Position numbers and translations under genes: made by a program. This document shows positions 59,648 to 64,000 of a stretch of DNA of 64,000 bases, one piece after another. The notes under the pieces were generated by a model. That model saw nothing but the letters and a program-made list of their open reading frames with translations, ran no database searches and was not told the origin of the DNA. Every line of letters begins with the position of its first letter. The first letter of the stretch is position 1. Source of the DNA: Phycisphaeraceae bacterium (GTDB lineage Bacteria > Planctomycetota > Phycisphaerae > Phycisphaerales > UBA1924); assembly GCA_019636615.1 (NCBI GenBank), contig JAHBXF010000002.1, positions 374,001 through 438,000 of the forward strand, in the 5' to 3' direction.

Positions 59648-60565
59648 ATGTCAGAGCCGGCCGTCAACTTTGAGAACGTATCGTTCACCTATCCCGGCGC
59701 GGAGTTCCCCGCGCTCGAGCACGTCTCGCTGCGCGTGGAACAGGGGGAGCGGCTCGGGGTGCTCGGGCCCAATGGCGGCGGCAAGAGCACGCTTTTGAAA
59801 CTCGCGCTGGGGCTGCTTTCGCTTCAATCAGGGCGGGTGACGCTGTTCGGGCTCGCCCCGCAAGAGGCGAGAAGGCGGGGGATGATCGGGTATGTTCCCC
59901 AGCGAGCCGAGTTGGAACTGGCGATGCCGCTGTCGGTGTGGCAGGTGGTTGAAGTGGCGGCGACCTGGCGGCGTGCCCCTTGGAGCCGGGCCGCGGACGC
60001 CCGAGAACGTGTGCGTGAGGCCCTCTTGCTGGCCGGCGCGGACGAACTGAAAGAGAAAGCGGTGGGGGAGTTGTCCGGCGGGCAGTTGCAGCGGGTGTTG
60101 ATCGCGCGGGCTCTGGTGGTCAGGCCACGCATGCTTGTTCTGGACGAGCCGATGGTGGGGATCGACGCCGTGGGGCAGGAGCGATTCGCGCAGTTGCTCG
60201 ATCGGATTCACCGAGAGCGCGGCATCACCATGTTGACGGTGACGCACGATGTGCGTGCCATTGTTGCGGGGAGCGATCGGGTGGCGTGCCTTGCGCGCCG
60301 GCTGCACAGCCACACAAGCCCGGAGGGGCTCACCCCGCGCGTGCTGGCAGAGGTCTTCAGCCACGATATCGCGGGTGTGGGCGGCGCGCTTCGGGGGACG
60401 CACATCCACGCGCACGGGCCGGAGGAACACTGTCCCGACGTGCATGAGACCGGTGCCGGTGGCCCCGCCCCGGGAGCGTGCGGCCACGTGTGCGGGCATG
60501 ATCATGGGCCCCACGAGGCAAGCACAAAGCGTGACGACCACCCGGCCAGCGGAGGAGGGGCATGA
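59648..60565 (+). CDS. znuC: Zinc/manganese ABC transporter ATP-binding protein (ZnuC-like)
   Basis: A 305-residue ATPase with Walker A GPNGGGKST at 40-48, LSGGQLQRVLIARAL, Walker B MLVLDEPMVGID and the H-loop THD. The last 55 or so residues are a His/Cys/Gly-rich tail (HIHAHGPEEHC, GHVCGHDHGPHE) that may sense or buffer zinc. It starts 101 bases after znuA and overlaps znuB by four bases. Confidence 0.93.
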   Translation: MSEPAVNFENVSFTYPGAEFPALEHVSLRVEQGERLGVLGPNGGGKSTLLKLALGLLSLQSGRVTLFGLAPQEARRRGMIGYVPQRAELELAMPLSVWQVVEVAATWRRAPWSRAADARERVREALLLAGADELKEKAVGELSGGQLQRVLIARALVVRPRMLVLDEPMVGIDAVGQERFAQLLDRIHRERGITMLTVTHDVRAIVAGSDRVACLARRLHSHTSPEGLTPRVLAEVFSHDIAGVGGALRGTHIHAHGPEEHCPDVHETGAGGPAPGACGHVCGHDHGPHEASTKRDDHPASGGGA

Positions 60566-61488
60566 GGACGATCGAGTACCTCTCGATTCCCGAGTTGGCG
60601 GAGATGTACTTTCAGGCCGCGCTGGCTGGGCTCGCGGTGGTGACGTTGTGCGGCGTGCTGAGCGTGTTTGTGGTGGTCAAGCGACTTGGGTTTGTAGGGC
60701 AGGGCGTGAGCCACGCGGCGCTGGGGGGCGTAGGCGTTGCGGCGATTGTCGCGGCGTTCGGCCTTATCCCGGGGGACGGCACGAGCGCGGCGGGGCTCTG
60801 GCAGTGGGCCATTGTGACGGCGTTTTGCGTGCTCTCGGCCGTGGGCATCGCCGCGGCGGGTGATCGGCGTGCATTGCCTTTCGACACGGCGATTGGCATG
60901 TTCCTGGTGGGATCGATGGCGCTGGGCGCGATTCTGGTTCAGATTGGGCGAGAGACAGCGACCTCGCGCGGCCAGTCTGGCATGACGCAAAGTTGGGAGT
61001 CGATCCTGTTCGGGTCGATCATGGGCACGGGCCTCGGAGATGTCGCGCTGGCGTGGGGGGCGTGCATCGGGGTGCTGCTTGTGCTGTGGGGGGTTCGCCG
61101 ACCGCTGTTGTTCTGGGGCTTTGATTCGGCAACCTCGCGGGCGTTCGGTGTGCCCGCGTCGGGCGTGAAGTACGCGTTGATGGTTCTGCTGGCGGTAGCC
61201 GTGGTGACGGCGATGCGGCTGACCGGGGTGATCCTGGCGACGGCGCTGCTGGTGCTTCCCGGTGCTACCGCGCTCAGGCTCACCGGCCGGCTGTGGCCGT
61301 CGATAGGGTTCTCGGTGGGAAGCGGCGTGTTGGCGCTGCTGGCCGGGCTGGTGCTGAGTATCGAGACAGACTGGCAGGCCGGGCCGAGCGTGGTGGTGGT
61401 GCAGTGCGTGCTGTTCGTGGCGGCGTGCGTGGCGGGGTGGCTCAAGGGGCGAATGGTGACAGGCAAGGGACCAATAATCAGGGCATGA
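60562..61488 (+). CDS. znuB: Zinc/manganese ABC transporter permease (ZnuB-like)
   Basis: A 308-residue permease with about eight to nine helices of the ABC-3 family. Motifs include VVTLCGVLSVFVVVKRLGFVGQG, SHAALGGVG and FGVPASGVKYALM, plus ATALLVLPGATALRL near the end. It forms the membrane channel for the ZnuA/ZnuC importer. ATGA overlaps at both ends show tight translational coupling with znuC and with the 63-residue ORF. Confidence 0.92.
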   Translation: MRTIEYLSIPELAEMYFQAALAGLAVVTLCGVLSVFVVVKRLGFVGQGVSHAALGGVGVAAIVAAFGLIPGDGTSAAGLWQWAIVTAFCVLSAVGIAAAGDRRALPFDTAIGMFLVGSMALGAILVQIGRETATSRGQSGMTQSWESILFGSIMGTGLGDVALAWGACIGVLLVLWGVRRPLLFWGFDSATSRAFGVPASGVKYALMVLLAVAVVTAMRLTGVILATALLVLPGATALRLTGRLWPSIGFSVGSGVLALLAGLVLSIETDWQAGPSVVVVQCVLFVAACVAGWLKGRMVTGKGPIIRA

Positions 61489-61676
61489 AAGCAGAAACCC
61501 TCCTGGCAGAACTGAACCGGCTGCGCAAAGACCTGGATGAAGACCCGACGGATGTCGAATGGCTCGCGTTGCACCATGCCTTCTGCTTCATCAGTTACAA
61601 GATGAGTGATTTTCAGCGGTATGTGGAGCAGGAAAAAGCCAAGGGCGCCTTCGCCGAGTATGAGGCCCAGTCGTGA
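61485..61676 (+). CDS. Small protein coupled to znuB
   Basis: A 63-residue ORF starting in the ATGA overlap with the znuB stop. The product is helical and charged (KAETLLAELNRLRKDLDEDPTDVEWLAL, written in parts, then FCFISYKMSDFQRYVEQEK). Codon use fits the neighbours. Function unknown; the position suggests a link to metal uptake, but that is inference. Confidence 0.6.
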   Translation: MKAETLLAELNRLRKDLDEDPTDVEWLALHHAFCFISYKMSDFQRYVEQEKAKGAFAEYEAQS

Positions 61677-61819: not shown

Positions 61820-61947
61820 CACCAGGGCGGCAGTGAGTCGCCCGTTTCAATGTGCCGCGGGCGACGGCCCGCGGGGAAGGAGCCCGGCGACGAGGCGAGT
61901 ACAGACCTCGTGTGCCCGGGGAGGCCTTTCTGAAAGGAGGTGATCCA

Positions 61948-61983
61948 GTGAATCAAGACTGTACCCAGGGGCTGCGTCTCTGA
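61948..61983 (+). CDS. Possible 11-residue leader peptide
   Basis: GTG seven bases after the core AGGAGG opens the frame MNQDCTQGLRL and a stop. The spacing copies that of actF, which uses a nearly identical site and GTG start. A perfect hairpin begins inside the frame at 61969. Supported only by the initiation region. Confidence 0.3.
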   Translation: MNQDCTQGLRL

Positions 61984-62034
61984 CGCACTCGACGGTCTGC
62001 ATCAGTCGCAGCCCGTGACGGATGAATCCGTACG

Positions 62035-62069
62035 CCGGCCACCTTCGCACGGAGGTGGCCGGTTTTTTT
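62035..62069 (+). terminator. Strong intrinsic terminator (rightward)
   Basis: A perfect ten-base-pair stem (62035-62044 with 62053-62062), eight-base loop, and seven T residues at 62063-62069. Ends the znu operon transcript and the structured segment. Confidence 0.95.
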
Positions 62070-62082
62070 CATGCGCTCCATG

Positions 62083-62147: not shown

Positions 62148-64000
<1,853 letters not shown>

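Follow-up and report, generated by a model that had tools for sequence, protein, structure and literature searches.

The window analyzed here, a 64,000-nucleotide stretch of DNA from a Phycisphaeraceae bacterium, carries an element that we consider, with a probability of roughly 60%, to be a ribosome-gated dual-function small mRNA of the extended Shine-Dalgarno (SD) kind, similar to rreB and rreR (Hahn et al., 2017, RNA Biol 14:1353-1363, as cited in PMC7298713, ref. 65) and representative of a planctomycete family. The evidence strongly supports the view that this element forms the core of an RNA gene in its own right, ~330 nucleotides in length, which is found nearly always once per genome. 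The planctomycete RNA family appears to be undescribed, since a literature search with poor coverage of subscription journals yielded no description of it.

An extended Shine-Dalgarno sequence that overlaps a start codon

The initial annotation had reported strong hairpins and a 16-base complement of the usual 16S rRNA 3′ end in this region, and the 16-base stretch GAAAGGAGGTGATCCA is indeed present at positions 61932-61947. The 3′ end of the organism's own 16S gene (L003; Rfam SSU match) reads ...GGCTGGATCACCTCCTTTCT, or CTGGATCACCTCCTTTC in a longer form, and therefore the exact complement is not 16 but 17 nucleotides in length (GAAAGGAGGTGATCCAG; positions 61932-61948, plus strand). The comparison with the organism's own 16S 3′ end, which had been proposed as a check, thus gave an exact match along all 17 nucleotides. 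The last of these is the G of a GTG start codon (61948), which opens an ORF of 11 codons plus a TGA stop (VNQDCTQGLRL; 61948-61983, plus strand) that the initial annotation had also described and that has homologous counterparts in relatives.

At the sequence level, this extended SD is complementary to the entire single-stranded 16S tail, reaching the first base of the start codon. The predicted duplex with the 16S tail amounts to -31.0 kcal/mol for the full extended SD versus -10.1 kcal/mol for a plain AAGGAGG. As with ordinary strong SD sites, the element pairs with the anti-Shine-Dalgarno at the usual spacing, but it differs from them by whole-tail pairing that continues into the start codon, and by the conservation through the phylum of positions that lie far outside a normal SD.

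The sequence AAAGGAGGTGATCC occurs three times in the whole 3.84-Mb genome, namely in the 16S gene, at the window site, and at one unrelated site (L001), while a reversed control pattern of the 14-base core has no occurrence in the whole genome. The unrelated copy (L001:1501-1514; C2:87455 in genome coordinates), which is the second outside of rRNA, has no start codon or element nearby. It was rejected as a second element because no element surrounds it and because it scores 9.5 bits with the broader of the two covariance models described below (R2).

Architecture of the RNA

A 253-nt segment carrying the element folds at -133.6 kcal/mol, compared to -103.9 ± 4.8 kcal/mol for dinucleotide shuffles (z = -6.15), which bears out the hairpins noted earlier. 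The core consensus begins with CGCGACGGCUGGG, ~12 nucleotides, and AAGGAGGUGAUCCA followed by GUG and two to five codons. It continues with the codons GAC UGU ACG AAG GGG CUG CGC, one more codon, the stop, and a hairpin with a CGACGG loop, after which come GCGCAGCCC, a small hairpin and the terminator. The GGGCUG codons of the ORF pair with CAGCCC located 3′ of the stop. In the window (all features on the plus strand), this stem is formed by GGGCTGCG within the ORF (61969-61976) and its exact 8-nt partner CGCAGCCC (62007-62014), which together close over the stop codon, and 95.4% of the corresponding cells in the alignment are paired. The enclosed post-stop hairpin (61984-62001) exhibits double-sided changes in all six of its pairs, and the GACG of its conserved CGACGG loop (61990-61995) is invariant in alignment A2. 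A small hairpin, ACGGAT-GA-ATCCGT (62018-62031), follows in the window fold, and relatives likewise carry small hairpins at this place, as read from their sequences. The RNA ends with an intrinsic terminator (62034-62070) composed of a 13-pair stem and a T-tract; a T-rich tail (six or more T in nine) is present in 36 of 38 homologues. Over the core as a whole, 91.5% of cells are paired, with 46 double-sided changes versus 12.6 for shuffled alignments and no more than 15 when partners are slid.

Upstream of the core lies a 5′ domain of ~190 nucleotides with five covarying helices, in which 94.2% of cells are paired and 101 double-sided changes are observed, versus 27.9 ± 4.3 for shuffled alignments and at most 32 for slid versions. 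Helix 3 (CCGCGGGC-GACG-GCCCGCGG; 61855-61874) is paired in 97.8% of cells and carries double-sided changes in six of eight pairs among 29 homologues. Helices 4 and 5 constitute a CCCGG/CCGGG stem with an inner ACGAGG/CCTCGT stem (61883-61920), and are paired in 94.5% and 88.1% of cells with double-sided changes in three of five and five of five pairs, respectively. Helix 2 (alignment A4) covaries in relatives, and at its place the window fold has a divergent hairpin, GGGCGGC/GTCGCCC (61825-61843). The window copy is therefore typical in its core and in helices 3 through 5, and diverges from its relatives further 5′.

Two known functions suggested by the loops were considered. The repeated GACGG loops raised the idea of a CsrA sponge, which was dropped because these loops conserve GACGG rather than AGGA. 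The CGACGG loop also recalls the 5′ region of tmRNA, and ARAGORN found no tmRNA in the window.

The SD might be partially masked. The segment CCTTTC at 61925-61930 falls in the predicted SD partner zone, and the CTCTT/CCTTT segment is the dominant predicted partner in the window element and in ~12 of 32 homologues. An earlier proposal that an upstream CCTT masks the site is therefore plausible for these RNAs, but does not extend to all, as the masking partner differs among species. The predicted accessibility of the SD is average.

A family of RNAs in Planctomycetota

An initial search with a 15-mer over 61 relatives mostly matched the 16S gene itself; after these matches were removed, clear homologues with the same layout were evident. 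Allowing two mismatches to GAAAGGAGGTGATCCAGTG yielded non-16S copies in most genomes, usually one in each. Built on the 116 positions of the core, a covariance model (R1) identifies the element in 93 of the 151 genomes at the order level, always as a single copy except for one genome with two, and misses ~38% of these genomes owing to loss, divergence or strict filters. Conservation of the SD in the training set arises in part by construction because the set was selected by SD, which is not the case for the helices or the 5′ domain. The window element matches the core model and has the helices, extended SD and short ORF of the family, although its scores (81.3 bits and an E value of 4.5e-20 with R1; 79.4 bits with R2) are likewise partly by construction because the window copy is in both training sets.

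R1 also finds members in other planctomycete classes, which carry the extended SD, ORFs such as VESVCISRRGGDA or MSDCTKGLPA, and a hairpin loop of CGACGGG or CGGCGGG. The broader model for the phylum (R2) has matches in 115 of 294 Planctomycetota genomes, every one at 30.5 bits or more, whereas 16S antisense decoys score 14 to 23 bits (maximum 23.0). Planctomycete elements outside the order may begin with ATG or TTG, and therefore not every element would pair into its start codon. No match was found among plasmid records or viral contigs. Candidate L039 was discarded as the start of another gene, and L061 as a chance match or an ordinary ribosome binding site.

These data address the explanation that the complement represents a chance match or a degenerate piece of rRNA. 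The 17 nucleotides do equal antisense 16S. However, the similarity to antisense 16S ends after AG, where GTG is present instead of GCC, and the context and ORF are conserved. The covariation of the core and 5′ domain, the occurrence through the order and the low scores of the decoys refute this explanation, to which we assign a negligible probability. The hairpins and the complement, whose absence from relatives would have told against the initial annotation, are in fact kept throughout the order, with covariation, and remain recognizable across the phylum.

Neighboring genes and independence of the RNA

The initial annotation had placed the segment between the znu operon and its terminator. 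In fact, the terminator is that of the RNA gene, and a conserved 63-amino acid orphan ORF (61485-61676, plus strand) intervenes. This ORF has no Pfam match and is located beside the element in 24 of 41 loci with 60-78% identity by tblastn (the window itself aside), and is probably a neighbor rather than part of the RNA. Ahead of the orphan in the window are genes with Pfam matches to ZnuA, ABC_tran and ABC-3, and the convergent gene behind the element encodes an H+-pyrophosphatase (H_PPase). Two possible metal-binding segments were observed in these neighbors: a His-rich tail on the Znu ATPase (60390-60560) and a His/Asp-rich stretch in the H+-pyrophosphatase (63040-63140, minus strand).

With znuB near the element in ~20 loci, and with a short Cys-containing ORF followed by hairpins in the manner of attenuators, a leader peptide or attenuator, which the initial annotation had listed as an option, might be imagined to control the znu operon or a downstream gene, and the frequent presence of the orphan could be read likewise. 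However, we consider such a role very unlikely. The element is downstream of znu, has its own terminator and is followed by the convergent H+-pyrophosphatase gene, and thus the hallmarks of a cis-acting leader, a regulated same-strand gene behind the terminator and a conserved synteny, are not observed. Other families of the order (L093-L096) carry the RNA without the orphan and without znuB, which argues for an independent unit and against a znu leader. Moreover, a -10-like box with a downstream TCGC is evident in 17 of 38 relatives when a strict pattern is used, and no recognizable promoter is located upstream of the window copy. From its sequence features, the RNA would be a structured small RNA gene of its own, with a putative promoter of its own in many relatives. 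Of the options offered by the initial annotation, a ribosome-binding regulatory RNA fits best, an RNA that sequesters ribosomes would be conceivable, and the leader or attenuator is not supported in view of the terminator, the convergent gene and the varying neighbors.

Conservation of SD pairing and of the reading frame

Across 35 elements at the order level and 60 at the phylum level, the bases that lie far beyond a normal SD (GTGATC) are retained. At SD position 12, opposite a U of 16S, A is replaced by G in 27 elements and by T in four; at position 14, opposite a G, C changes to T five times and to G once. Such substitutions would mostly keep G·U pairing to 16S. Positions 15 and 16, which are opposite the helix 45 base, are freer in other classes.

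The reading frame is also maintained. All 59 elements examined have an ORF of 9 to 18 codons, always with start and stop, and the peptide consensus in the order is DCTKGLR. Automatic calls place GGGCTG in frame in 36 of 41 cases; on reading, four of the five exceptions prove to be motifs picked wrongly, and only L084 has a true frameshift. In nearly all elements, indels ahead of the conserved GGGCTG are multiples of three. The frameshifted homologue (L084:2450-2565) has a 1-nt deletion within the conserved DCTKG part, retains an intact stem, and its ORF still stops after 14 codons.

A gene that simply encodes a micropeptide and has a ribosome binding site of unusual strength might account for the strong start site and for the DCTKGLR motif kept within the order. 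This seems quite improbable given that peptides differ almost completely across classes and phyla while the SD and layout stay constant, and that the long covarying 5′ domain would be superfluous for a peptide gene. The extended SD of rreB also reportedly lowers translation. The ORF is not constrained solely at the peptide level, as evident by conservation of nucleotides: cysteine codons in planctomycete ORFs are TGT in 60 instances and TGC in 10, versus 4 and 23 in ordinary genes of the window.

Cysteine is encoded by this rare TGT codon at window positions 61960-61962 and in homologues from several phyla, mostly at codon 4 to 7. Because Cys makes up ~9% of codons in planctomycete ORFs, is nearly always specified by TGT and occurs early in other phyla too, the RNA could be conceived as a sensor of cysteine supply, wherein pausing of the ribosome for Cys-tRNA at the early rare codon selects between two folds. 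We give this scheme little credence: Cys is absent from some ORFs, including most of those in Rhodobacterales (mostly VSR.LERGVGT) and several in planctomycetes, and there is no regulated gene downstream.

The RNA could alternatively be a non-coding decoy or sponge that merely occupies the 16S tail of 30S subunits, with the ORF being incidental or a release mechanism. The very stable tail duplex, the strong conservation at the RNA level (structure and TGT codons) and the frameshift in L084 are all in keeping with this idea, which we nevertheless judge to be unlikely. ORF lengths are tight, indels come mostly in threes, and start and stop codons are always present. In addition, a single RNA gene per genome would need to be expressed to extreme abundance to titrate ribosomes.

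Similar genes in other phyla

When one genome per species was scanned for AAGGAGGTGATCCAGTG, at least 117 loci emerged, and nearly all of those listed have a very short ORF whose length is specific to the lineage. Among the matches listed, ORFs encode 14 or 22-26 amino acids in most Hyphomicrobiales, 18 in Rhodobacterales, 11-12 in Phycisphaerales, and 14-15 in Myxococcota, Acidobacteriota and Krumholzibacteriota. Each of 14 genomes checked for copy number has one. Searches of the phyla Acidobacteriota and Myxococcota revealed more members, with peptide ends such as EVASS and TAGEVVSC, and there ORF codons (GAGGTGG) can likewise pair 3′ of the stop. Candidates L284-L287, L293, L294, L314-L317, L320 and L321 from other phyla were discarded as chance matches or ordinary ribosome binding sites.

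In Rhodobacterales, a CACCTCC-like stretch downstream is predicted to pair with the SD itself. Within the loci of this order (among L098-L204, e.g. L148), the consensus fold pairs a 16S-tail-like CTAACTGGCTCATCTCCTT, located 3′ of the 18-codon ORF, with the extended SD. It is possible that this stretch forms a self-masking switch that would compete with real 16S.

With R2, nine loci of Acidobacteriota, Krumholzibacteriota and Myxococcota score 25-34 bits, above every 16S decoy, although part of this excess is trivial because these loci share GTG with the model and the decoys lack it. No alphaproteobacterial locus clearly exceeds the 16S decoys. The scores therefore render common descent possible for the loci of the first three phyla, and leave it unproven for Alphaproteobacteria. 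Peptides change almost wholly between classes and phyla, and the SD and layout stay. One speculative reading, which we hold only tentatively, is that the RNAs of planctomycetes, Acidobacteriota, Myxococcota, Krumholzibacteriota and Alphaproteobacteria descend from one ancient bacterial RNA gene that acts in trans on the ribosome via the 16S 3′ tail. Such an RNA might, for example, monitor free 30S subunits or the condition of the 16S 3′ end, and its switch would be the translation of a peptide that is itself dispensable.

Comparison with rreB, rreR and CC2171

The alphaproteobacterial RNAs rreB (14 amino acids; Bradyrhizobiaceae) and rreR (18 amino acids; Rhodobacter/Roseobacter lineage) reportedly carry a 17-nt SD. 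They are said to associate strongly with 30S subunits and to be weakly translated, the transcript being stabilized by a start-to-stop change, and the extended SD reportedly lowers translation of rreB. Our scan recovers 14-amino acid ORFs of Bradyrhizobium (e.g. VSFTKRCHLAGIAR) and 18-amino acid ORFs of Rhodobacterales, which by their sizes are presumably rreB and rreR.

Like these genes, the planctomycete RNA has a 16- to 17-nt complement of the 16S 3′ end directly 5′ of a very short ORF with a GTG start, and is a small, putatively autonomous gene with nearly always one copy per genome. The window element exceeds the 16 nucleotides of complement ahead of a short ORF that would mark this type (17 nucleotides, 11 codons), and its GTG lies inside the complement, as it does in the order-level set, which was selected by pattern. 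Of the traits of an autonomous unit, the window copy has the terminator, and the promoter-like box is found in the 17 relatives noted above. Unlike rreB and rreR, the planctomycete RNA is from another phylum, encodes an unrelated peptide of 11-13 amino acids (DCTKGLR), and is ~330 nucleotides long, with a 5′ domain that is conserved and covaries and a hairpin whose loop is CGACGG. The window peptide VNQDCTQGLRL does not resemble VSFTKRCHLAGIAR or VSRVILERGVGTVRG.

A search of Rfam, as the initial annotation had recommended, gave only sub-threshold matches in the window, with CC2171 and BcKCsr2 touching the element; among 20 homologues, the only match was CC2171, for Rhizobium. The consensus of CC2171 (RF01867), a Caulobacter sRNA, contains GAAAGGAGGUGAUCCAGUGUCUCAU, and a match to the model at 91.5 bits spans the extended-SD locus of Rhizobium L152. 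The window element reaches 35.2 bits against a gathering score of 75, which places it outside the family; the strongest matching part is the 16S complement, and the structure fits poorly. The matching Rhizobium segment (L152:3335-3502) has an extended SD and a short ORF (VSHC...). CC2171, although listed as a non-coding sRNA, is therefore probably a small mRNA or dual-function RNA. On these comparisons, the planctomycete element resembles rreB and rreR in how it would work, yet is to be assigned neither to them nor to CC2171.

A proposed mechanism and its implications

Rather than a pure decoy, a sensor of cysteine or a simple micropeptide gene, we favor a dual-function RNA that responds to ribosomes, and infer the following mechanism and role. 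Free 30S subunits would dock via the unusually stable tail duplex, which would compete with partial masking of the SD site. Initiation would be slow because the duplex extends into the start codon, and each elongating ribosome would open the GGGCTG:CAGCCC stem. Docking and the short round of translation might thereby shift the RNA from one form to another of different stability or activity. In this way it would report the availability of ribosomes or react to it, as an RNA and possibly also via its peptide.

To our knowledge, extended-SD small mRNAs have been described only in Alphaproteobacteria. With relatives across Planctomycetota and similar genes in other phyla, RNAs of the rreB/rreR type look much more widely spread than described, and the catalogued non-coding sRNA CC2171 is suggested to carry such an ORF. 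More than 100 natural variants and the covariance models make the 16S complement, the short ORF and the stem separately testable. A family that spans the phylum and covaries strongly, together with genes of like layout in Acidobacteriota, Myxococcota and Krumholzibacteriota, suggests that the match to the whole 16S tail is a selected and old feature rather than a local oddity.
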